DNA of 64,000 bases from Candidatus Aminicenantes bacterium JdFR-78 (GTDB lineage: Bacteria > Acidobacteriota > Aminicenantia > JdFR-78): assembly GCA_002010665.1 (NCBI GenBank), contig MTON01000005.1:1116-65115 (forward strand), in the 5' to 3' direction. Below, piece by piece: positions 39,727 to 53,385 of this stretch. The number at the start of each line of letters is the position of its first letter. Positions within the stretch are counted from its first letter, which is position 1. Below the pieces are notes generated by a model. The model saw only the letters and a program-made list of their open reading frames with translations, was not told the DNA's origin and made no database searches. A program made the translations under genes and the position numbers.

Positions 39727-42700
39727 TTATAATTCGATATCAGGAGTTTTCTTTTCAAAAATACCATAAAGACATGGTAATACTATTAATGTAAGGGCTG
39801 TTGAAGTAATTAAGCCTCCAATCACAACAGTGGCTAAAGGTCTCTGAATTTCTGAACCCACCCCTGTTGACAGAAGTAAAGGAATAAGACCAAGGCTTGC
39901 CACAGAGGCGGTCATTAAAACTGGTCGGAGTCTGAGAGAAGCTCCTTTAATTATAGCATCTTCCAATGGTAATCCCTCCCTTCGAAGTTGTCTGATATAG
40001 GATACAAGAACCACACCATTTAATACTGCTACCCCGAATAAAGCAATAAATCCAATAGAGGAGGGAACACTCAAATATTGTCGCGATATCAGGAGAGAAA
40101 ATATACCACCAATTAAAGCAAATGGAACATTTAGAATGATAAGCAAGGCATGCCGAACTGAATTAAATGACATGTAAAGTAATAGGAAAATCAGGAAAAT
40201 GGATAGAGGAATAACAATCATTAAAGTCCTCTGTGCTCTTTGCTGATTCTCAAATTGACCTCCCCACTCAATAAAATATCCTGGAGGAAGTTTAACTTTT
40301 TTTTCTACAGCTTCTCTAGCTTCCTGAACAAAACCACCAAGATCTCTTCCCCTGACATTACACTGAATTACAACTCTTCTTTGAGCATTTTCTCTACTTA
40401 TTGTTGGTGGTCCTTCTTCAATTTGAATTTTTGCTAATTGAGCAAGGGGAACCCTAACACCAGAAGGAGATGCAACCAGTAGATTTTTAATTACCTCAAT
40501 ATCATTACGATATTCCTCTTTAAGACGAAGATAAACAGCAAAACGTTTCTGACCTTCTATTACCTCAGTAACTGCTTTTCCTCCAATGGCATGGGATACA
40601 ATTTCCATTACATCTGATACATTTATTCCATATTGAGCAATTGCATCCCTGTCAACCCGTATAACTAACTGGGCTTCTCCGCTTATCTGTTCCATCTGAA
40701 CGTCTTTAGCTCCTTTTATGGTTTTAATTACTGCTTCAATTTCTCTTCCTTTTTTCTCCAGAACTTCTAAATCTTCTCCAAACAATTTTATGGCAATTTG
40801 AGCTCTAACTCCAGAAATCAATTCATCGACACGAGTTGCAATCGGCTGACTAAAATTGAATTTTAATCCAGGTATCTCGGACAGATCTTTCTGTAGTATT
40901 TCTATTAATTCATACCTATTCTTTGCTGTTTTCCACTCGGATTGAGGCTTTAATCCCACATATATTTCATTATTTGAAACTGGTTCAGGGTCTCCTCCAA
41001 GTTCTGCTCTACCAATACGAGAAAGAGCATAAGTCACCTCAGGATATTTCAGAAGTTTTTTCTCTAATTTCTCAGCTATTCTAATAGCTTCCTCCAGAGA
41101 TATACTTGGATTCATGGTAACTCGAATACAAAGTGTCCCTTCCTCAAGTTCTGGTACAAATTCAGTCCCAAGGAAGGGAATTGAAGCCAGTGCTGAAATT
41201 AATAGAATTATTGCTGTGGTAATTACAATTGAACGTCTTCTTAAAGCTGATTTTAAAATTCGAATATATATTCTTTTCAGAAATCTGATCAAGAAGAACT
41301 CTTTCTCAGATAATTTTCCCTTCAATAATATAATGCAGAGGACAGGCACAATTGTTAAAGCAACTATAAGAGAGCCAAGCATCGCATAACTAATTGTAAA
41401 AGCCACAGGAGAAAATAATTTTCCTTCAACTCCTTGGAGTGTAAAAAGAGGTAGGAACACCACAACAATAATTAAAACAGCAAAGAAAACAGGTCGAGCC
41501 ACTTCTCTTGCCGCTTCATGAACAAGATGCACGTGGTCTATACCCTTTTTCCGGCGTTCTACAAGATGCCTGTATATGTTCTCCACCATCACCACAGAAC
41601 CATCCACCATCATTCCAATTCCAATAGCAAGACCACCAAGAGATTGTAAATTAGCTGAAAGACCAGCGCGATTCATCATAATAAATGCAATCATCATTGA
41701 AATTGGAATTGAAAGCACAACAATTATAGATGAACGGACATTTCCTAAAAAGAGAAAGAGAACTATGATTATAAGGACTGCAGCCTCCTTTAATGCATCA
41801 GTAATGGTTTCAATTGCTTTATCAACGAGATCTGCCTGATCATAATAAGGAACAATTCTAACACCAGGTGGCAGGGATTTCTGAATCTCTTTAACCTTCT
41901 TTTTTACCCTTTTTATTACTTCTTTTGTATTTGCCCCTTTCAGCTGTAATACAATACCTGTAACCACTTCACCTTTTCCATCTTTAGTAACAGCGCCCTG
42001 ACGTATTTCTGGCCCATAATTCACTTCAGCAATATCCTTTACATAAATGGGAGTACCCCCTTCTGCTTTCAAAACTATGTTCTCAATATCACGTAATCCT
42101 TCTTCCTCTTTTCTAATCCATCCAACTCCCCTTATAACTAATTGTTCGGGACCAGTAGAAAGATACCATCCTCCCACATTCAAATTACTATTTTTTATTT
42201 TTTCCGCAACCTCTTCCAGAGTCAGGTTATATTTTAGAAGCTCATTAGGATCAACTTTTACCTGAAACTGTCTTACTTCTCCTCCAAAACTCAATACATC
42301 TGTAACACCAGGAACCGTTCGAAGTTGAAATTTTACAATCCAGTCATTAATAGCTCTCAATTCCATTAAAGAATAATTCTCTCCCTCAAGAATATATTGA
42401 TAAATCTGACCGAGTCCAGTTGTAATCGGACCAATTTCGGGCTCTCCTAAACCTTCAGGAATGCGCTCTTTTGCAACCTGAAGCCTTTCAAGAACCAATT
42501 GCCTTGCAAAATATATATCTACATTATCTTTAAATACAATGGTTACAACAGAAAGACCTGTTTTTGAGATGGATCTGACTTCTGTAACATCTGGCAACCC
42601 ATTCATAACAGATTCAATGGGAAAGGTGATGAGTTTCTCAACTTCTTCTGCTGCTAATCCAGGAGCCTCAGTATTAATCACCACCTGAATATTTGTTACA

Positions 42701-42822
42701 TCAGGAAATGCTTCAACCGGAAGTCGCAATGTGGTATAAATACCATATCCGAGAAGAAAAATACCAAGAATTACGATTAAAAATCTATTCCTAATGGCAA
42801 ATTCTAATATTCGGTCAATCAT
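39727..42822 (-). CDS. Heavy-metal efflux RND transporter, CusA/CzcA family
   Basis: 1,031-residue inner-membrane proton-driven pump with 12 membrane helices and two large periplasmic loops; forms a tripartite complex with the next two genes upstream. HME-RND identity is clear from the start (AIRNRFLIVILGIFLLGYG) and VEAFPDVTNIQVVI. In TM4 the sequence is LAIGIGMMVDGSVVMVEN, which keeps the second Asp and the Glu but has Ala-Ile-Gly in place of the Asp-Phe-Gly of Zn/Cd/Co pumps. This is the pattern of Cu/Ag and unassigned HME pumps, so specificity is open. Confidence 0.95.
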   Translation of the reverse strand: MIDRILEFAIRNRFLIVILGIFLLGYGIYTTLRLPVEAFPDVTNIQVVINTEAPGLAAEEVEKLITFPIESVMNGLPDVTEVRSISKTGLSVVTIVFKDNVDIYFARQLVLERLQVAKERIPEGLGEPEIGPITTGLGQIYQYILEGENYSLMELRAINDWIVKFQLRTVPGVTDVLSFGGEVRQFQVKVDPNELLKYNLTLEEVAEKIKNSNLNVGGWYLSTGPEQLVIRGVGWIRKEEEGLRDIENIVLKAEGGTPIYVKDIAEVNYGPEIRQGAVTKDGKGEVVTGIVLQLKGANTKEVIKRVKKKVKEIQKSLPPGVRIVPYYDQADLVDKAIETITDALKEAAVLIIIVLFLFLGNVRSSIIVVLSIPISMMIAFIMMNRAGLSANLQSLGGLAIGIGMMVDGSVVMVENIYRHLVERRKKGIDHVHLVHEAAREVARPVFFAVLIIVVVFLPLFTLQGVEGKLFSPVAFTISYAMLGSLIVALTIVPVLCIILLKGKLSEKEFFLIRFLKRIYIRILKSALRRRSIVITTAIILLISALASIPFLGTEFVPELEEGTLCIRVTMNPSISLEEAIRIAEKLEKKLLKYPEVTYALSRIGRAELGGDPEPVSNNEIYVGLKPQSEWKTAKNRYELIEILQKDLSEIPGLKFNFSQPIATRVDELISGVRAQIAIKLFGEDLEVLEKKGREIEAVIKTIKGAKDVQMEQISGEAQLVIRVDRDAIAQYGINVSDVMEIVSHAIGGKAVTEVIEGQKRFAVYLRLKEEYRNDIEVIKNLLVASPSGVRVPLAQLAKIQIEEGPPTISRENAQRRVVIQCNVRGRDLGGFVQEAREAVEKKVKLPPGYFIEWGGQFENQQRAQRTLMIVIPLSIFLIFLLLYMSFNSVRHALLIILNVPFALIGGIFSLLISRQYLSVPSSIGFIALFGVAVLNGVVLVSYIRQLRREGLPLEDAIIKGASLRLRPVLMTASVASLGLIPLLLSTGVGSEIQRPLATVVIGGLITSTALTLIVLPCLYGIFEKKTPDIEL

Positions 42823-42847: not shown

Positions 42848-44050
42848 CTAATGTCCCTCTTCAAACTTTGACTTTTCAAGTTCTGATAGTAAAAGAAAAT
42901 TTCCCTGAGTGACAACCACCTCTCCTTCCCTTAGTCCATCAATAACTTCAATCCATCCATTGTATTTGAGTCCTGTGATTATCTCTCTGCGATGATATTC
43001 TCCTGGTTTTTTCTCCACGAATACAATTGTTGTATTTGTACGGGATAAAACCGCTTCCTTTGGAACAGCTAAAACATCTCTCCTCTCCATCACTGGAATT
43101 TCTACTCTGGCAAACATTCCTGGTTCAAGGAGTCCTTCTTGATTTGGAACTTCTATATACACTTTAATTGTTCGAGAATTTTTATCCATAATATCTGAAA
43201 TATAAAATATTTTACCGATGAATTCTCTATCTGGATAAGCCTTTACAGATATATGAGCTCTTTTTGCCTTAAAAACTTTCGCAAGATCCTTTTCATATAT
43301 ATCTGCTACAACCCATACCTTGGAGAGATCAGCGATGAGATAAATATCTTTTGTTGATTCCACAAATTCTCCTTTTGCAAGGTGCATCTCCACAATTGTC
43401 CCGGCAATAGGACTTCTAATAGGGAATTGTGTTATCTCAGCCCCGTTTTCACTCTCAATTCTGGATAAATCTTCATCTGTTAACCCCAAGAAATGAAGTC
43501 GTCTTTCAGCCACCATTAATTCAGCTTGAGCTTTTTTATATATTCTCTCAGCCTCTAATAATTCTGTTTCCGTGGTAATTCTCGCTTCCTCAAATAACCG
43601 TTTTTCCCTCTCATAGTTCTTCTTTGCAATCTCCATTTCTTTTTTCGCTTTAAGATACTCTGACTTTGCCTCTCCAAATTCTGTGCTGTCCAGAATGGCT
43701 AATAATTCATTTTTCCGGACAGGGTCTCCAAGAACTTTATAAATTGTCTTAACAATCCCAGAAACAACAGGGACAATATGTGCTACCTGATACTCATTAA
43801 AGGTGACTTCTCCGGTTACCCTAATAGTCTCATAAAGGGTTTGTCTTTTCACGGAAGAGGTGGAAATGCCAGCAGATTTAATCTGCTCTTCTGTTAAAAA
43901 TATGATATTATTTTTGTGTGCCTTGGGAGGATCCTGCTGATTTTCCAGAGATTTATTCTGATTTTTAATTTTTAAAAATTGAATAAAAAGCAGGATTAAA
44001 ATTAAACTTAAAATACCACTCCCAATAATTAAAATTTTTTTCTTTCTCAT
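42848..44050 (-). CDS. RND efflux periplasmic adaptor (CusB/CzcB-like)
   Basis: 400-residue membrane-fusion protein anchored by one N-terminal helix (IIGSGILSLILILLFIQFL). It has the expected lipoyl, alpha-helical hairpin (residues ~150-195, rich in E and K), and beta-barrel domains, with VPKEAVL near the end. No extended His/Met-rich N-terminus, as in some CusB proteins, is present. It overlaps the tolC-like gene by 4 nt and precedes the pump gene by 25 nt. Confidence 0.93.
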   Translation of the reverse strand: MRKKKILIIGSGILSLILILLFIQFLKIKNQNKSLENQQDPPKAHKNNIIFLTEEQIKSAGISTSSVKRQTLYETIRVTGEVTFNEYQVAHIVPVVSGIVKTIYKVLGDPVRKNELLAILDSTEFGEAKSEYLKAKKEMEIAKKNYEREKRLFEEARITTETELLEAERIYKKAQAELMVAERRLHFLGLTDEDLSRIESENGAEITQFPIRSPIAGTIVEMHLAKGEFVESTKDIYLIADLSKVWVVADIYEKDLAKVFKAKRAHISVKAYPDREFIGKIFYISDIMDKNSRTIKVYIEVPNQEGLLEPGMFARVEIPVMERRDVLAVPKEAVLSRTNTTIVFVEKKPGEYHRREIITGLKYNGWIEVIDGLREGEVVVTQGNFLLLSELEKSKFEEGH

Positions 44051-45414
44051 GGGTTCCTCCTATCTTCTCCTATTTCAATTAATGCTCTCCCAATAAGCTT
44101 TTCCAATTCAGCAGCAGAATCATTCAAAGATTCAATGACTTCTATATAAATTTCTTGGGTTTCAGCTAGAGTTCTTTGAGCATCTAATAAGTCGAGATAT
44201 GATAATTTGCCTTGTTCAAAACCCTTTCTTACTAAATCCAATGATTTTTTAGCTTCAGGCAATATAATTTCTTGATATTTTTTTATTTGATTTAAAGTTC
44301 GACTAAAAACAGTTAATTTTTCATCAAGCTCCAGCAGAATATCATTTTCCCTTGCCTTGTAGTCTGTCTCTGCTTTTCTTATATTAAGAAGCGCCTCAAT
44401 AATTTTTCCCTGATTCAAATTAAAAATAGGTATAGGAATTCCAATACTGAATTCCGCTATATCTTCCTTTACAAGAGTATCCTTTCCATAGCCCACACGA
44501 AATTCAATATCTGGTATTCGCTGTACTTTAGCAAGCTTTAATTTTAACTGCGCAAGTTCTTTCTCTTTTTTCTGAGCTAATAGACCCGGATGTGTCTTTA
44601 AAACTATTTTCACTAAGTCTTCTTTCAAAAGCTTAGGAAAAGAATCCCTTAATCTCCCTCTATATTCTTTAATTTTTAATTTTGGTAATCCTATTATTGT
44701 CTTCAACCGTTTTTCTGCAATAGAAAATTTTGCCTTAGCATTAAATAATTTCACTTTTGCTCTCTCTAATTCAATTCGTGCCTTAATAAGCTCTGTTTGA
44801 GGTGCTACACCTGCATCAAATCTCTTTTTTATACTATCGAATAGACTCTGTGCTATCTCAACCGTTCGCCTTGCTACTTCTACTTTTTGTTGAGTTGCCA
44901 GTACCCCATAGAAAGCTTTCTTTATCTCAGCAATAACCTCCCGGAATTTCTCTTCATATTTTAGAGCAACAATTTCCTTCTCTATTTGAGCAACTTTTGT
45001 TCTCAGCGCTATTTTTCCTCCTATTAAAACTTCTTGACTCAGGCTTACTATATTTTTACTTTTTTGAAAGCCGAGATTCTCTCGAGGAATATCTTCAGCT
45101 TCAAACTCTATATGAGGATTTGGCCAGAGTCTTGATTGAATAATTCTTGCCTCTGCAATACCTATTTGTTTTCTGAGTGAAATTAATTCAGGATTAAATT
45201 TCAACGCAAGAGAAATTGCTTCATCGAGTGTGATAGAATCATCCCTACCTTTCTCCTCAATATATTGATAATTAGTATTCTTGGAAATCAATAAATCGAC
45301 TTCAGGTTCTTGTAAATAATTTTTAAAATTTTTTGTATTATAAGAAACACATCCCCAAATGAGGCTAAATATAGATATTCCAACAATCCAGATTAATAGT
45401 TGACATTTCCTCAT
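44047..45414 (-). CDS. TolC-family outer membrane efflux lipoprotein
   Basis: 455 residues forming the outer-membrane exit duct. The signal sequence ends in a lipobox (LIWGC), so the mature protein should be lipidated at Cys22. Two OEP domains each with long coiled helices are visible, e.g. SLALKFNPELISLRKQ and FDAGVAPQTELIKAR in repeat one and FEQGKLSYLDLLDAQRTL in repeat two. It shares ATGA with the adaptor gene. AAGGAG precedes the ATG. Confidence 0.93.
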   Translation of the reverse strand: MRKCQLLIWIVGISIFSLIWGCVSYNTKNFKNYLQEPEVDLLISKNTNYQYIEEKGRDDSITLDEAISLALKFNPELISLRKQIGIAEARIIQSRLWPNPHIEFEAEDIPRENLGFQKSKNIVSLSQEVLIGGKIALRTKVAQIEKEIVALKYEEKFREVIAEIKKAFYGVLATQQKVEVARRTVEIAQSLFDSIKKRFDAGVAPQTELIKARIELERAKVKLFNAKAKFSIAEKRLKTIIGLPKLKIKEYRGRLRDSFPKLLKEDLVKIVLKTHPGLLAQKKEKELAQLKLKLAKVQRIPDIEFRVGYGKDTLVKEDIAEFSIGIPIPIFNLNQGKIIEALLNIRKAETDYKARENDILLELDEKLTVFSRTLNQIKKYQEIILPEAKKSLDLVRKGFEQGKLSYLDLLDAQRTLAETQEIYIEVIESLNDSAAELEKLIGRALIEIGEDRRNP

Positions 45415-45901: not shown

Positions 45902-46852
45902 CTATTTGAATTTGTCAAACTTAATTTTCTCCAGACTTTCTTTTCCATAAATATCTGATTCTAAAAGAGGAATATACCCTATTATCATTTCTTTGAATTT
46001 AGTCTTTATCTCATCCAGGTTTTTCTTCTGAATTTCTTTTCTTTTGGAAAAAAATTTACTGTTAATTTTAGTCAATATTCTATTAATGATAATTCCATCA
46101 ACTTCTATTCCATGCTTTTTCAATAAAGAAATAGCATCCGCAGTCTCTAATATAGACAATCTCTCAGCATCTAATACAAATATAATACAGCTGTTTTTTT
46201 TATTTTGTAAATAACTTCTGACCAGAAGGAACTTCTCTCTTCTCTTTTTTAATAGTTCAATCAAAGGATCACGCTCTATTTTTTTTCGCAGAGACTCGTC
46301 CACTTTTGACGCCATTTTCATTAAATTTATAACTTGTAATCTCCTTTCAATCAATCTTTCAATCCATGACTCTAACAATTCCGGGAATGTAAAAAGACGA
46401 AGGGTATGACCAGTGGGAGCAGTATCAAAAACAATTTTATCATAGGGATTGCCAATTTTATCCATAATCTCAATGAATTTATCGAAAATAGCAGACTCTT
46501 CCACCCCGGGAGAAAGAAAAGCTGTATCAATCTGTTTTTTAATTTCTTCTACTATAACACTGCTCACAACTTCTTTTATTGATTCTTTTATCTTTTTTAT
46601 ATATTTCCTTGCTTCCTTTTTAGGATCTATTTCAATTGCCCATAAATTTTCCTCTATTTTTATTTCTTTTGAGCCAATTTTTCTTTCAAATATATGAGAA
46701 AGGGAATGAGCTGGATCAGTTGAAACAAGAAGAATTTTAAATCCCTTTCGAGCTAAATTTAGAGCAAAACTTGCACTACAGGTTGTTTTACCTGAACCTC
46801 CTTTTCCAGCAAAAAAAATAAATTTCTTAGTAAGTATCTTTTCATTTGTCAT
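45902..46852 (-). CDS. ArsA/Get3-family ATPase
   Basis: 316-residue cytosolic ATPase of the ArsA/Get3 branch. Motifs: P-loop GKGGSGKTT (residues 16-24), the signature STDPAHS, the switch segment DTAPTGHTLRL, and VLDAER. It has one nucleotide-binding domain, so it should work as a homodimer. It lacks the Cys triad of arsenite-binding ArsA, and no arsB or arsD is near, so arsenite transport is not supported. It lies between the P-type ATPase region and the RND pump, directly after a 94-residue protein ending in Cys-Cys that probably works with it. Confidence 0.88.
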   Translation of the reverse strand: MTNEKILTKKFIFFAGKGGSGKTTCSASFALNLARKGFKILLVSTDPAHSLSHIFERKIGSKEIKIEENLWAIEIDPKKEARKYIKKIKESIKEVVSSVIVEEIKKQIDTAFLSPGVEESAIFDKFIEIMDKIGNPYDKIVFDTAPTGHTLRLFTFPELLESWIERLIERRLQVINLMKMASKVDESLRKKIERDPLIELLKKRREKFLLVRSYLQNKKNSCIIFVLDAERLSILETADAISLLKKHGIEVDGIIINRILTKINSKFFSKRKEIQKKNLDEIKTKFKEMIIGYIPLLESDIYGKESLEKIKFDKFK

Positions 46853-46861
46853 TTTTAAAGA

Positions 46862-47146
46862 CTAACAACAGAAATCATACTGACCAGCTTTTTCAGCAAC
46901 AATGCTTTTTCTTATTGATATTCTCTTCTCCCAGCTTTCAAGCTCTTCTACAAAAAGAGGTAGAAATTCCAGAGCAAAGTAAGAAAAAGGATTTGGTATA
47001 CCAAGAAAATCTCCAAAAAGAAGAAGCATAAAATCATCATTGAGATCAGATGCCTCTTTACGAATAATGCTCGATGCTTTTACTTTAAAAGCTCCTTCCA
47101 GAAAGTCAGATATAACGGCCAATGAATGTTTAAACTTATTTTTCAT
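46862..47146 (-). CDS. 94-residue protein ending in Cys-Cys, linked to ArsA-like ATPase
   Basis: Small soluble alpha-helical protein. It contains a well-formed core (FGDFLGIPNPFSYFALEFLPL) and ends KAGQYDFCC, with Cys-Cys as the last two residues and the only cysteines in the protein. This may be the family NCBI names cory-CC-star, which I recall as adjacent to ArsA-type ATPases; the name needs checking. It sits 1 nt after the P-type ATPase stop and 9 nt before the ArsA-like start. A role handing soft metal ions to or from the ATPase is inference. Confidence 0.8.
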   Translation of the reverse strand: MKNKFKHSLAVISDFLEGAFKVKASSIIRKEASDLNDDFMLLLFGDFLGIPNPFSYFALEFLPLFVEELESWEKRISIRKSIVAEKAGQYDFCC

Positions 47147-47147
47147 T

Positions 47148-49484
47148 TTATCTTTTAAATTTAAATAATCTCATTCCATTAAATATTACCATAAGAGAAG
47201 CTCCCATGTCTGCAAAAACAGCCATCCATAATGTAGCTAATCCTGGTACAGCTAAAGTCAGAAATATCGCTTTAATAAATAAAGCAATAAATATATTTTC
47301 TTTAATAATCCAAAGAGCTTTTCTTCCGAGTCTAATTACAAATGGTATTCCAGATAAATCATCTGACATAAGAGCAATATCCGCTGTTTCTAATGCAGCA
47401 TCTGTTCCAGCTGTTCCCATTGCAATTCCTAAAGTAGAAGCAGCCAAAGCTGGAGCATCATTTACTCCATCTCCTACCATTGCAACCTTATCATATTTTT
47501 TCAAAAAATATTGAATAGCTCCAACCTTATCCTGGGGAAGAAGTTCAGCCTTAAACTCATCAATCCCCAACTCTTTAGCAATCGCCTTTGCAGTTCCTTT
47601 ATTATCACCTGTAAGCATTGCGATTCTCTGAATCCCGATTTTACGAAGTTTATCTAAGGTGGGTTTACAATTTTCTCTTATTGTATCAGATATTACTATA
47701 ATTCCTAATATCTCTTTGGAACTACCTAAAATAACAACAGTTTTACTTTCTTTTTCAAGTTCTTCCATTTTTTCATCTAACTCAGGAGTACAAAATTTGT
47801 TTTCTTCAAAAAGTCGATGACTTCCTATATAAAAATATTCTTCACCAATCTTGGCCATTGCTCCTTTGCCTGTAATAGCCTTAAAATTTATAGGCTCTGG
47901 AATTTCTAATTTCCATTCTTTTGCTTTATTTAAAATAGCCTGGGCTAAATGATGTTCTGAACGAGATTCTATACCTGCAGCTATTTTTAATACTTCTTCT
48001 TTTTTATAATTATTTAAAGGAATTACATCCAATACTTCAGGTTTCCCTTTAGTTAGAGTGCCTGTTTTATCAAAAACCAGAACTTTCAATTTCCCTGCAT
48101 TCTCTAAATGAACTCCACCTTTAATTAATACCCCTTTTCTTGCTGCCTGAGCTAATCCTGCTACAATGGTAACTGGCGTAGATATCACTAAAGCACATGG
48201 ACAGGATATAACCAAAAGAACTAAAGCTCTATAAATCCATACTGTAAAAGGTTGATTAAAAATAAACACAGGGATTATTGCAGTTAACAATGCTCCTGTA
48301 ACTACACTTGGAATATAGTATTTTGCGAATTTGTCAACAAAACTCTGAGAAGGAGCCTTTTGAGCCTGAGCCTCCTCAACCATATGTATAATTCGAGCTA
48401 ATGTAGTATCCTTTGCAGAGTGCGTAACCTTTACTTCTAAAAAGCCATTTTGATTAATGGTCCCTGCAAATACAATGTCACCTTTCTTTTTTTCTATTGG
48501 CATTGACTCACCAGTTATTGGAGCTTGATTAACATATGAATTTCCTTTAATAACCTTACCATCTAAAGGAATTTTTTCTCCAGGTTTAATTACAATTATT
48601 TCTCCAATTTTTACTAAATTAACATCAAGTTCAATTTCTTTTCCATCTCTTTTCACAAGAGCTTTTGGAGGAGAAAGTTCCATTAAAGAGCGGATGGCAT
48701 GCCTCGCTCTATCCATGGAATAATTTTCCAATAATTGCGCTATTGAAAAAAGCACAACTACAACCGAGGCCTCTACCCATTCTCCTATAAAAGCTGCGCC
48801 AATTACTGCTATTGTCATTAAAAAATTCATATCAAGACTGAGGGTGCGAAGAGCAGCTATACCCTTACGTGCTATAAAAAATCCTCCAGTTATAATTGCT
48901 GTGACAAAGACTGGAATAACAATATTTTGACTAATTTCTAATCTTGAAAGGATTATGCCGGTAACAGTTAAAATTCCTGCAATAATAGTTGTAATTAAAT
49001 GTTTCCTTCTTTCCCAAAACGACAATTCCTCTTTTGACTGCCTTTTTATACTCGCTTTCATCCCGGTCTGATTTATCGAATTTATTATTTCAGTGGGCTT
49101 TAGTAGCTTAGAATCATATTTAATTTCTATTTCTTGTGTAACTAAATAAAATTTCATATCTTTTATGCCCTGTAGATTTTTCAACTTTTTCTCTATAATT
49201 TTAGTTTCTTCAGAGCAGTCCATTCCTTCGATGTATAGGCGAAGAGAACTTATTTTTTCTTTATGTTCAACAGAATAACCCAGTTTTTTTATAGCTTTTT
49301 CTACATTTTTTTTATTAAATCGAGAGGAATCAACTTCAATTTTTATAGTGGAATTTATAAACGAGACCTGTGCAGACTTTACACCCTTGATCTTTGAAAC
49401 TGCTTTCTCTATTTTTATAGCACAATCCGCACAATCGATTCCTTTAATTTTTAACTCAATTTCTTTCTTGCCTTTTGTGTTCAT
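47148..49484 (-). CDS. cadA: Zn/Cd/Pb-transporting P-type ATPase (CadA/ZntA type)
   Basis: 778-residue inner-membrane P1B-type ATPase exporting divalent soft metals. There are two N-terminal HMA domains: the first with a full C-x2-C (GIDCADC, Cys18/Cys21), the second with the CadA-like GMDCSEE. The transport motif is SCPCALV, the phosphorylated Asp is in DKTGTLT, and the hinge is GDGVNDAPAL. TM7 Lys (FIKAIFLT) and TM8 Asp (ADMGASL) are the residues that mark the Zn/Cd/Pb subgroup. It follows the ArsR repressor with a SmtB-type operator in the 54-nt gap. Confidence 0.95.
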   Translation of the reverse strand: MNTKGKKEIELKIKGIDCADCAIKIEKAVSKIKGVKSAQVSFINSTIKIEVDSSRFNKKNVEKAIKKLGYSVEHKEKISSLRLYIEGMDCSEETKIIEKKLKNLQGIKDMKFYLVTQEIEIKYDSKLLKPTEIINSINQTGMKASIKRQSKEELSFWERRKHLITTIIAGILTVTGIILSRLEISQNIVIPVFVTAIITGGFFIARKGIAALRTLSLDMNFLMTIAVIGAAFIGEWVEASVVVVLFSIAQLLENYSMDRARHAIRSLMELSPPKALVKRDGKEIELDVNLVKIGEIIVIKPGEKIPLDGKVIKGNSYVNQAPITGESMPIEKKKGDIVFAGTINQNGFLEVKVTHSAKDTTLARIIHMVEEAQAQKAPSQSFVDKFAKYYIPSVVTGALLTAIIPVFIFNQPFTVWIYRALVLLVISCPCALVISTPVTIVAGLAQAARKGVLIKGGVHLENAGKLKVLVFDKTGTLTKGKPEVLDVIPLNNYKKEEVLKIAAGIESRSEHHLAQAILNKAKEWKLEIPEPINFKAITGKGAMAKIGEEYFYIGSHRLFEENKFCTPELDEKMEELEKESKTVVILGSSKEILGIIVISDTIRENCKPTLDKLRKIGIQRIAMLTGDNKGTAKAIAKELGIDEFKAELLPQDKVGAIQYFLKKYDKVAMVGDGVNDAPALAASTLGIAMGTAGTDAALETADIALMSDDLSGIPFVIRLGRKALWIIKENIFIALFIKAIFLTLAVPGLATLWMAVFADMGASLMVIFNGMRLFKFKR

Positions 49485-49538: not shown

Positions 49539-49940
49539 TCATGGACTTTCCTCCACATGCTCCAATCCTTGATTGAATAAATCCTCAATGTGTTTATCTG
49601 CAAGAGAATAATAAGCAACTTTACCATCTTTTCTATATTTTACTATTTTCAAATTTCTTAAAATTCTTAATTGATGAGAAATAGCAGAACTGCTCACCCC
49701 TATAAGATTTGCTAAATCACAAACGCATAATTCCTCCTTTAACAATGCAAAAATAATTTTAACGCGCGTTGGATCAGATAAAGCACCAAAGATTTCAGCT
49801 AAGCTAGTTATAACCCTTTCAGGTTTCATAATTTTTTTAATTCTATCAACTTTAGCTTTATTTATGGAAACAACTTCACAAACTGCATTACTGGAACTGG
49901 TTTTTTCTTTTGTAAAATTATTATGTGAATAATTGTTCAT
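49539..49940 (-). CDS. ArsR/SmtB-family metal repressor (CadC-like)
   Basis: 133-residue winged-helix repressor released from DNA by Cd, Pb or Zn. It has the alpha3 metal motif ELCVCDL and an N-terminal Cys (SNAVCEV), together matching the alpha3N site of CadC. The recognition helix is in VSSSAISHQLRIL, and C-terminal acidic/His residues (DKHIEDL...EHVEE) could form the alpha5 site. Its first codons lie inside a second SmtB-type operator (49926-49939), implying direct autorepression. It directly precedes cadA. Confidence 0.93.
   Translation of the reverse strand: MNNYSHNNFTKEKTSSSNAVCEVVSINKAKVDRIKKIMKPERVITSLAEIFGALSDPTRVKIIFALLKEELCVCDLANLIGVSSSAISHQLRILRNLKIVKYRKDGKVAYYSLADKHIEDLFNQGLEHVEESP
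49926..49939. promoter_or_regulatory. SmtB/CzrA-type operator overlapping the arsR-family start codon
   Basis: Minus-strand reading TGAACA-AT-TATTCA, where TGA belongs to the ATG start codon plus the next base. Repressor bound here would block both transcription and access to the start codon. It matches the site before cadA in both half-sites. Confidence 0.7.
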
Positions 49941-50005: not shown

Positions 50006-52735
50006 TTATTTTTCTGAAATTTTCAGGAGAGAGGCCTTAAATCCTAAATTCTCTATAACTTCAATCAATTGATTAACTGGAACAATATATTTCCAAATTT
50101 TAATTATTGCTTTTCGTTCCTTAAAATTTATTTCAACTGAAATAACTCCTCTAATTTTTTTGAGAATTATTTGCATTGTATTTGCACAATATTGACAATC
50201 TACACCTCTCACTTTTAATATTATTGTCTGCAAAGAAGTTCGCAAAGGAATCGCCTTGTATCCTATTTCCCTTAAAGTTCCAATCAATTGATTAATGATA
50301 ACATTATTTTTCCAGATTTCAACTATTATTTTATCATTTTTCATATTTATCTCAGGAGATATTACTCCTTCAATTTTCTTCAAAGAGGAAAGTACCTTTT
50401 CTACATCCTCTTTTTTTATTTTTTCTTCCAATCTTAGAATTATCATTTCAGTTTTTCTTTTTTCTACTCCTTTAGTCTTTTGTGAATAACCTCCACTTCT
50501 CCATTTCCATCCGATATTAAGACGTACATAAAAATTCCTCCCAGGTTCTGGAATTTGAGCAAGATTCAAATGTTCTCTATAAGCCTTGTTAAAAATATTT
50601 TCGATGCCAAAATTTAATGTTATAAATTTTGAAAACCTGATTCCTCCTTTAAAATCAAAAATAGAAAAACCAGGAGTTACCACCTCTCCTGCACTAATTG
50701 ATATTCTTTTCTGTTCAGTTACGAATCTTCCACTACATTCAGCCCAAAATAATTCTTTTGAATCATTCAATCTCAATGCAAGCCTTGATTCTAATGGAGG
50801 AATCTGGGCTAGTGGTTCACCCGTAATGTCATCCCTTCCCCAATTGTAGAGGAAATTTCCGTATAAAGAAACCAATTTACTTAGAACTATTCCTAACTCA
50901 GATTCTAATCCTCGAACAGTTGCTTTACCAATATTAATGTATCGCTTTACTCCCTTAACTCCTAAAAAAGGAGGGTCTGCTAAAGGGTCAATTTTTGTTG
51001 ATATTAAATCAGTAAGTTTATTTTGAAAAAATGAAATACTCCATTTTAAATTTTTATTTGTACTCCTTATTCCAACTTGGATACTCAAATTCTTCTCTGG
51101 TCTAAGATTTGGGGTGCCAATATAATAGTATCCATCCTTCATAGTAGCAGAAAAATATCTTTCAGTAGGATTAGCTATTTTATATGCTCTTCCAATTGAA
51201 GCCGTGAGATTAATGCTATCCGAAAGTTCATAAAAAAGGCTCAGGTTTCCATTCACAAATTTATCTAACGAATCTGCTTTCTGACTTTTAATTTGAAAAT
51301 CATGGGAGAGCTGAGCATTAGAGTAAGATATATCTATTCTTGCTCCTATTGTGATATTTAATTTAGGAATAATTTCAATCCTATTTTGTCCAAATATACT
51401 AAAATAAGAAATGTAAGAAGTCGGTAAAATTTTTATTAATTCTGTTTTTTTGAAATTTCCATCGTATCTAATTGCTTTCGTTTTCCATAGATTAAAATCT
51501 GTACCTATTGTAAGAATGCTTTTTCTATTTAAAATGAAATCACCCCTGATTAGCAGTCCATATGTATTCGAAAATGCCTCTTCTTCAGGTATAAAGCTTT
51601 TTCTTGAAGATAATGTGATTGCATTATGATACATGTTTTGAGCATATAATTTAACAGAAAGGGATGCAAAAGTCCTGGAGAGATTATTAGCTGAGTAGCT
51701 TAAATTATATAAACTTCTATTTTCTTTCGGAATTATAATAAAATTACTTGGATATCCAATATCTCTACCAAGATATCGATCTATTGTGAATTGAATTTGT
51801 TGTTTGTTGTCTAATCGATATTTTAATTTAAAGTTATAACTCATATCTCTAAATTTACTATTTTTAACTACTCCGCCCGGAATTCTGTAATCTTCATAAT
51901 TGCTTTTTATTATTCCGATTAAGAAATCTATGGATTTATATCTACCGCCAAAATTGAACCCCACCTTTCTTCCATTAGAAACACTATTATAAATTGCATT
52001 TAGATTACCATATATTGAAAGTTTAGCTGTTTTTAAAATCTTAGGCTTTTTAGTAATAATATTTATAATACCTGCAAAGTTTCCAGACCCATATATTACA
52101 GAATGAGGCCCCTTTATTACCTCAATGTATTCAATTTGGGAAGGCTCAATTGTTGCTGTGCACGCATCCATACCCATTGGGCAGGCTTGATTAACCCTAG
52201 CACCATCAATTAGCAAAAGAATTCTGTCATCTTTCATCCCCTGGATCACAACTTTTACTCCCCAGCCTCCTGGCCTGTTTGTAAATATACCGGGTATCAT
52301 TTTTAAAGCCTCTGCTGTAGTAGTAAGATTTGATCTATTTATTTCATTTTTATTTATTGTTGAAGATATAGACGTTAAACTGAAGACTTCTCGTTTAGCT
52401 ATGACCTCTATTTTCTCCTGCGCTTTCAAAATATCCAACAAAAATAATAGTTTAACTTTAATATCAGTTTTTATTGAGACCTTTTTAATAATACTTTTAT
52501 AACCAATATGTTGAACTCTTATTTTATAAATACCAGGTGGAAGACCCTTAATATTAAAATAACCATTAATATCAGTTGTTGTTTTTATCTGTGTTCCTTC
52601 AATAATAATATTCGCATGAGTTAATGGAAGTCCGGTTTGCTTATCCTTTACGTAACCTTCTATTTCTCCTTCATTTTCTGAAAAAACTGGGGTAATTAAG
52701 ATTAGTGAAATAATTATCAATGCAAAGGTACGCAT
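50006..52735 (-). CDS. TonB-dependent receptor with two C-terminal HMA-like domains
   Basis: 909-residue outer-membrane receptor. After a signal peptide, residues ~22-95 form a carboxypeptidase-regulatory-like domain, ~110-230 the plug and ~240-745 the barrel, which ends in the usual aromatic strand (FYVRLNIGWKW). The plug contains C-P-M-G-M-D-A-C (Cys185, Met189, Cys192); C-x3-M matches the copper-binding motif described for the OprC/NosA receptor. After the barrel are two HMA-like ferredoxin folds: the first (from residue ~764) lacks C-x2-C, the second has VDCQYC (Cys847/Cys850). The barrel C-terminus faces the periplasm, so the HMA domains should too. It lies just downstream of the CsoR-like gene. 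Confidence 0.92.
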   Translation of the reverse strand: MRTFALIIISLILITPVFSENEGEIEGYVKDKQTGLPLTHANIIIEGTQIKTTTDINGYFNIKGLPPGIYKIRVQHIGYKSIIKKVSIKTDIKVKLLFLLDILKAQEKIEVIAKREVFSLTSISSTINKNEINRSNLTTTAEALKMIPGIFTNRPGGWGVKVVIQGMKDDRILLLIDGARVNQACPMGMDACTATIEPSQIEYIEVIKGPHSVIYGSGNFAGIINIITKKPKILKTAKLSIYGNLNAIYNSVSNGRKVGFNFGGRYKSIDFLIGIIKSNYEDYRIPGGVVKNSKFRDMSYNFKLKYRLDNKQQIQFTIDRYLGRDIGYPSNFIIIPKENRSLYNLSYSANNLSRTFASLSVKLYAQNMYHNAITLSSRKSFIPEEEAFSNTYGLLIRGDFILNRKSILTIGTDFNLWKTKAIRYDGNFKKTELIKILPTSYISYFSIFGQNRIEIIPKLNITIGARIDISYSNAQLSHDFQIKSQKADSLDKFVNGNLSLFYELSDSINLTASIGRAYKIANPTERYFSATMKDGYYYIGTPNLRPEKNLSIQVGIRSTNKNLKWSISFFQNKLTDLISTKIDPLADPPFLGVKGVKRYINIGKATVRGLESELGIVLSKLVSLYGNFLYNWGRDDITGEPLAQIPPLESRLALRLNDSKELFWAECSGRFVTEQKRISISAGEVVTPGFSIFDFKGGIRFSKFITLNFGIENIFNKAYREHLNLAQIPEPGRNFYVRLNIGWKWRSGGYSQKTKGVEKRKTEMIILRLEEKIKKEDVEKVLSSLKKIEGVISPEINMKNDKIIVEIWKNNVIINQLIGTLREIGYKAIPLRTSLQTIILKVRGVDCQYCANTMQIILKKIRGVISVEINFKERKAIIKIWKYIVPVNQLIEVIENLGFKASLLKISEK

Positions 52736-52773: not shown

Positions 52774-53052
52774 TTATTTAGCAAATTTATAAATTACATC
52801 CATTAAATTTTTATAAGTTTCATCAGCTTTTTGAGGGTCCTTTGAGCGAATAGCTTCAGTTACGCATGTCTCAAGATAATTCCTCATAATAACTTTACCA
52901 ACTCCTCTTAAAGCCTCATGAATTGAAGAAATCTGCGTTAAAATTTCAATACAAGGCCTTTCTGACTCAACCATTTTTCTTATCCCTGAAAGTTGCCCTT
53001 CTATTTTATTTAATCGAGAAATGATCTCTTTTCTTCTCTCCTCATTTATCAT
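52774..53052 (-). CDS. CsoR/RcnR/FrmR-family transcriptional repressor
   Basis: 92-residue all-helical repressor that releases DNA on binding metal or a reactive small molecule. Conserved features are the N-terminal RRKEIISRLNKIEGQL helix and RPCIEILTQI. Aligned to CsoR's Cys-His-Cys copper site, Cys34 and Cys63 are kept but the His becomes Tyr59 (RNYLETC); His45 is present nearby. So copper sensing exactly like CsoR is not certain. A palindromic operator lies directly upstream (53071-53093). It is the first gene of the metal island, 38 nt before the receptor gene. Confidence 0.92.
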   Translation of the reverse strand: MINEERRKEIISRLNKIEGQLSGIRKMVESERPCIEILTQISSIHEALRGVGKVIMRNYLETCVTEAIRSKDPQKADETYKNLMDVIYKFAK

Positions 53053-53093: not shown

Positions 53094-53166
53094 ATTAATT
53101 ATTGTTTTTTGTCAAGAAAAAATAAGAAGTAATGCTTTTATCCCCCGATTCAAGGAATGAAAATAG

Positions 53167-53241
53167 CGCCCCCGACGGGATTTGAACCCGTGTTGCCGCC
53201 TTGAAAGGGCGATGTCCTAGGCCTGGCTAGACGACAGGGGC
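53167..53241 (-). tRNA. tRNA-Glu (anticodon TTC)
   Basis: 75-nt cloverleaf. Acceptor GCCCCTG pairs with CGGGGGC (one G-U), the anticodon loop CTTTCAA reads TTC, and the T arm is ACGGG-TTCAAAT-CCCGT. The discriminator is G and CCA is not encoded. GC-rich stems in AT-rich surroundings suggest growth at raised temperature. Confidence 0.95.
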
Positions 53242-53302
53242 GCCACTACATCTGAAACTTATAAAGTAAAAACTAAAAATTCAAAAATTAAAAATTTGGC
53301 TA

Positions 53303-53374
53303 TGAGCCGTGCTGGACTCGAACCAGCGACACCCGGCTTAAAAGGCCGGTGCTCTCCCTCTGAGCTAACGGCTC
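53303..53374 (-). tRNA. tRNA-Lys (anticodon TTT)
   Basis: 72-nt cloverleaf. Acceptor GAGCCGT pairs with ACGGCTC, the anticodon stem CCGGC/GCCGG holds CTTTTAA (anticodon TTT), and the T arm is CGCTGGTTCGAGTCCAGC. The discriminator is A; CCA is not encoded. It is transcribed first, with tRNA-Glu about 60 nt downstream. Confidence 0.95.
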
Positions 53375-53385
53375 ATCGATTTTTT

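Follow-up and report, generated by a model that had tools for sequence, protein, structure and literature searches.

The OprC/NosA copper receptors are among the closest known relatives of the protein examined here; OprC holds copper through Cys143 and Met147 in the plug together with His323 and Met325 in the barrel (PMC8610252). How soft metals pass the outer membrane, and what receives them in the periplasm, is an open question for nearly every TonB-dependent receptor. HMA domains with a CxxC motif carry Cu(I), Hg(II), or Zn/Cd, and MerTP is an inner-membrane MerT with a MerP-like periplasmic HMA domain at its C terminus. No outer-membrane receptor is named in a review of the mer system, whose figure has diffusion arrows at the outer wall. 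We analyzed a 64,000-nucleotide stretch of DNA (the window) on contig MTON01000005.1 of Candidatus Aminicenantes bacterium JdFR-78, which encodes a receptor with HMA domains joined to its barrel. When the acceptor is tethered to the receptor, handover becomes testable within a single molecule.

The receptor gene (52735-50006, minus strand) is a single open frame of 909 aa with no internal stops, and it runs past the barrel into the HMA tail as a sequence-only reading of this DNA had described (Table 1). CarboxypepD_reg-like, Plug, barrel, and HMA domains all score above the curated Pfam cutoffs, and a fold search with the full receptor model returned TonB-dependent receptors, OprC among the top matches. 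Plug, barrel, and fold all support the receptor identity first assigned by eye. Judged by homology, the window protein is an OprC-like TonB-dependent receptor, for which we infer TonB-energized uptake. In the full-length AlphaFold model the last barrel strand comprises residues 734 to 746, in agreement with a barrel end previously placed near residue 745, and a low-confidence linker follows. The model has an overall pLDDT of 62 (7 sequences), and ligand geometry is unreadable from it because plug confidence is low.

Table 1. Features of the window receptor and the surrounding metal locus
Feature	Position	Strand	Basis
CzcA/CusA-family RND pump	39727..42822	minus	TIGR00914 1210 bits, over cutoff; motif AIGIGMMVDGSVVMVEN
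CzcB-like adaptor	42848..44050	minus	profile match
CzcC/TolC-like outer-membrane efflux protein	44047..45414	minus	profile match
ArsA/Get3-family ATPase	45902..46852	minus	profile match
cory-CC-star-like protein	46862..47146	minus	NF041419 59 bits, under cutoff 80
P1B-type ATPase, ZntA-like	47148..49484	minus	CPC, DMG, two HMA domains
ArsR/SmtB-family regulator, CadC-like by eye	49539..49940	minus	ELCVCD, SmtB-like D-x-H...H-x2-E helix
TonB-dependent receptor with two HMA domains	50006..52735	minus	909 aa, P0001
HMA2, residues 834-909, C847-x2-C850	50009..50236	minus	PF00403
HMA1, residues 756-833, degenerate copy of HMA2, no CxxC	50237..50470	minus	alignment, model
Beta-barrel, Pfam residues 309-714	50594..51811	minus	PF00593, 141 bits
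Barrel half-site M368-Y-H370-N-A372	51620..51634	minus	alignment to OprC
Plug domain, residues 120-223	52067..52378	minus	PF07715, 80 bits
Plug metal motif C185-P-M-G-M189-D-A-C192	52160..52183	minus	invariant, 7/7 fused receptors
CarboxypepD_reg-like N-terminal domain, residues 25-100	52436..52663	minus	PF13715, 65 bits
CsoR/RcnR-family repressor	52774..53052	minus	PF02583 92 bits; 38 bp upstream of receptor

Two HMA folds at the C terminus, the second alone bearing CxxC, had been read from the letters, and both domains of the tail were modeled as HMA folds. HMA2 matches the Pfam HMA family over residues 840 to 900 at 36 to 44 bits (cutoff, 24.8), carries Cys847 and Cys850, and has the topology beta-alpha-beta-beta-alpha-beta in the full-length model. 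HMA1, which has no cysteine, scores 21.3 bits (E = 4e-4), slightly below the same cutoff; modeled alone from an MSA of HMA domains, it takes the identical topology at a mean pLDDT of 92. The two domains are identical at 26 of 48 aligned residues (z = 16 versus shuffles), and the metal loop is gone from HMA1, which reads EEKIKKED where HMA2 reads GVDCQYC. From this fold, this identity, and the lost loop we therefore read HMA1 as a degenerate tandem copy of HMA2, one that has probably lost metal binding and acts as a spacer. The termini of TonB-dependent receptor barrels, the C-terminal tail included, are periplasmic by established topology, which supports the periplasmic location claimed earlier; by analogy, the HMA tail of this receptor is on the periplasmic side.

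Six relatives, each 33 to 36% identical to the window receptor over the full length including the tail, were found in a scan of 84,980 species (one genome per species); because the scan used six exact peptide patterns, it can have missed more divergent fused receptors. The relatives come from independent metagenome-assembled genomes (MAGs) of Ignavibacteria/Bacteroidota and KSB1-type bacteria: two Ignavibacteria-type MAGs (L045 and L046), a MAG labeled Deferribacteres (L047) that shares its phylum with the KSB1 MAGs, two KSB1 MAGs (L048 and L049, the latter ending at a contig edge inside the HMA domain), and a Bacteroidetes MAG (L050). In every relative the barrel is followed by a single HMA domain with GMACxxC, the CxxC being invariant. 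The tandem is thus real in the window receptor and found only there, whereas the family layout is one HMA domain, and we rejected the tandem as a conserved family architecture.

That a frameshift or chimeric assembly fused a receptor to an HMA gene has nothing in its favor except the rarity of the architecture. The window frame is open without a stop, and the same join with alignable tails recurs on six contigs that stem independently from separate MAG studies; because these six receptors have the barrel-plus-HMA layout, the fusion is not an assembly error, an explanation whose likelihood we put at practically nil and which we consider ruled out.

The seven fused receptors form one clade (support, 99/97), from which the window receptor branches first. 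Searches with profile A1 recovered no further fused receptor from 396 genomes belonging to the window's phylum, 346 and 82 from the phyla of L046 and L048, or 242 and 164 from the orders of L050 and L046; these samples overlap partly, amount to ~1,200 genomes altogether, and were drawn evenly so as to cover a minority of species. The next best matches reached at most 462 bits, versus 1,170 to 1,477 for the fused receptors, and end ahead of the HMA domain; the scores of unfused homologues thus stay below half those of the fused proteins. The proposal that the fusion is common in the phylum was rejected on these surveys. Only unfused receptors, at 23% identity, were recovered from the plasmids searched, and we found no description of such a fusion in the open-access literature. 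The architecture holds up as rare in these surveys, and the sequence-only reading had likewise placed it outside the described receptors.

The putative metal site of the plug and barrel aligns in large part with that of OprC. In the profile alignment C185 and M189 fall exactly on Cys143 and Met147, verifying the OprC-type C-x3-M motif picked out in the sequence-only reading, and H370 aligns with His323. The position of Met325 is occupied by Ala372 in the window receptor, leaving it with CxxxM and no HxM, and by Met (HNM or HDM) in all six relatives; the window receptor has a Met two residues ahead of the His. The plug motif ACPMGMDAC is invariant across all seven proteins, and its Met187 and Cys192 have no counterpart in OprC or in the phylum's OprC-like receptors. 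The TIGR01778 TonB-copper model gives the window receptor 177 bits against a cutoff of 472, and the protein, although OprC-like in anatomy, is therefore not filed as OprC. In the two KSB1 genomes, unfused receptors (L058 and L059) retain the barrel HHM and the plug Met, with Gly at the position of the plug Cys.

Nutrient import of Cu(I)/Cu(II) in the manner of OprC/NosA, with the HMA domain as periplasmic copper acceptor and the metal-resistance neighbors reflecting metal islands, is possible but doubtful. OprC is the closest solved structure by sequence and by fold, its CxxxM-HxM ligands are retained in the six relatives, the best matches of HMA2 among solved structures are ATP7A/ATP7B and CopZ type domains, and a CsoR/RcnR-family gene lies just upstream in the window, as CsoR-family genes lie near the receptor in L045, L046, and L050. 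These regulators, however, are without the canonical Cys-His-Cys, the window protein having Cys34, Tyr58, and Cys62 at the corresponding positions, and copper-specific genes are absent beside the window receptor. The low TIGR01778 score, the additional Cys192, and the co-occurrence of MerA with the fused receptors also count against copper. Of the copper reading first proposed, the CxxxM motif stands; the HxM half-site is incomplete, and the genomes of the relatives point to mercury.

MerA, the mercury reductase, is present above its curated cutoff in 6/6 of the other fused genomes versus 8/71 controls (Fisher p = 1.3e-5), a sample in which the six genomes include two pairs of close kin and the controls represent two of the fused genomes' groups and are not matched for the order of L050. 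Comparisons within phylum/order gave 3/3 versus 5/36 and 2/2 versus 3/35, and the MerA frames inspected have a Cys-Cys pair at the end. This genomic link with mercury detoxification, which is not visible from a single window, is the main addition of our analysis. Hg(II) is the favored metal for the family. For the window receptor Hg(II) is an unproven candidate. Two features of the window count against our preferred reading: the equivalent of OprC Met325 is missing, and the genome has no MerA above the cutoff (best match, 337 bits versus 454, dihydrolipoyl-dehydrogenase-like). A MerT search of the window genome gave no match, and its positive control likewise gave none.

The gene neighborhoods of the relatives extend this link. 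In L047 the order is ArsR, MerA, MerTP, a MerR-family gene, a gene for a small membrane protein spread across two frames, the receptor, ArsR, a P-II fragment, and Czc; in L046 ArsR, a secreted HMA protein, MerTP, and MerA lie ~6 kb before the receptor, with a CsoR-family gene immediately upstream. The MerTP genes adjoining the receptor in L046 and L047 score 254 and 267 against a cutoff of 180, and the adjoining MerA genes likewise exceed theirs. In L050 the receptor adjoins a weak MerT homologue and a thioredoxin-like gene. The small membrane protein directly before the L047 receptor (L047:9297-9907) has an FFEPCT motif, appears CcdA-like by eye, and has no Pfam match; it could be a source of reductant for the periplasmic HMA domain. 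Also adjoining the receptor, at L045:3849-5823 and L050:6516-8520, is a trio of genes for an uncharacterized protein (start PPIF[ST]D[ST]P...), a secreted HMA protein (CPFC), and an NHL-repeat protein. The CsoR-family regulators at L045:582-965, L046:9133-9561, and L050 (minus strand) lack the canonical Cys-His-Cys and share CPGNC toward the C terminus.

The metal locus of the window runs, on one strand, through genes for CsoR/RcnR, the receptor, CadC-like ArsR, the ZntA-like ATPase, the cory-CC-star-like protein, the ArsA-family ATPase, CzcC, CzcB, and CzcA. This row of receptor, regulator, and pumps, together with the recurrence of receptor-ArsR-Czc in L047 with a P-II gene, is what a Cd/Zn/Pb resistance-operon device would look like, in which, for instance, Cd(II)/Zn(II) in the periplasm is picked up at the outer membrane by the window HMA tail for the pumps and transport is secondary. 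An importer within an efflux operon is a paradox, however, and the plug site is like a Cu/soft-metal site and unlike ZnuD. Such neighbors are absent from the locus DNA of L045, L046, L048, and L050, and the 65-bp gap between receptor and ArsR makes separate promoters possible; we consider this explanation unlikely. Taken together, MerA in the relatives and the CadC/ZntA/Czc-like neighbors in the window argue that the substrate would therefore be a soft metal.

Several further observations concern this locus. The cory-CC-star-like gene adjoins the ArsA/Get3-family ATPase gene (45902-47146, minus strand). The CzcA/CusA-family pumps of the window (39727-42822) and L047 (L047:18744-21833) both carry AIGIGMMVDGS[VI]VMVEN, unlike the classical CzcA motif, DFG...DGA, and a P-II gene lies near both. 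An inverted-repeat operator search upstream returned AT-rich repeats only. The CsoR-family gene, and with it the metal locus, is immediately preceded upstream by genes for tRNA-Glu and tRNA-Lys (53166-53375, minus strand), a possible integration site.

We regard it as probable that the window protein is a soft-metal receptor with a tethered acceptor, the identity of the metal being left open. With the tail on the periplasmic side, the reading we prefer is binding in the plug followed by a putative handover to the tethered acceptor. A soft metal ion would be bound by C185 and M189, probably with C192/M187, plus H370/M368 of the barrel. TonB would then pull on the plug and release the ion to the periplasmic side; there the HMA domain, attached to the final barrel strand, would capture the ion with its CxxC and hand it onward. 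Among the relatives, the inner-membrane MerTP and then MerA would receive the ion next; with these partners the ion would therefore be Hg(II), and the receptor would do at the outer membrane what MerP does, much as MerTP fusions do at the inner membrane. The window is without MerA; there the same device would stand among CadC/ZntA/Czc-type genes, and its substrate may be Hg, Cd, or Cu. The full chain from plug to tethered HMA domain and onward, with Hg(II) in the relatives, we judge evenly balanced. More tentatively, the fused proteins may be an undescribed family of outer-membrane receptors for Hg(II) or a comparable soft metal, whose MerP-like tail passes the ion from plug to HMA to MerTP, never free. 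The inward direction that we infer would be sensible for a toxic metal only given a cytoplasmic sink. Tethering would also be compatible with a sensor or gate, in which HMA2, once loaded with metal, signals the periplasmic load and shuts the receptor with no handover, and the ligand-free HMA1 could be a regulatory spacer; HMA domains of the MerP, CopZ, and Atx1 type, however, are known as carriers, we found no precedent for such a gate, and we consider it very improbable.

If the preferred reading of a soft-metal receptor with a tethered acceptor holds, the fused clade may represent a step at the outer membrane, so far overlooked, in the handling of mercury or a similar soft metal, and its conserved, MerA-linked members are candidates for a dedicated mercury step in bacteria that are maybe poor in general porins. 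To our knowledge, no HMA tail occurs in the selenoprotein TonB-dependent receptors of the FCYXU/PCPU motif types. Those receptors (NF049945 and NF049947; PMC12013277) share a thiol/selenol motif and give weak plug-region matches, but the window receptor scores far under their cutoffs. OprC/NosA (PMC8610252) share the receptor fold, the plug CxxxM at the same position, and the barrel His (HxM in the relatives), whereas OprC has neither the HMA tail nor Cys192 and Met187, with no CarboxypepD_reg-like domain matched, and the window receptor departs from it in the Ala at the Met325 position and in a TIGR01778 score far under the cutoff. Bacteroidota OprC-like receptors (Bizionia argentinensis G2EC70, PMC11213822; L036, L037, L039, and L044) share CxxxM-HxM but form a separate clade with ACPxxMDP instead of ACPMGMDAC, and they are unfused in the loci read. 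The HMA domains of MerP, CopZ, and ZntA (PF00403) share the fold and the CxxC, whereas those of the window receptor are covalently joined to an outer-membrane receptor and include the ligand-free HMA1. The MerTP fusion (NF033556), which adjoins the receptor in L046 and L047, follows the same logic, a transporter to which a periplasmic HMA domain is tethered, although it is a helical inner-membrane protein unrelated to the barrel.
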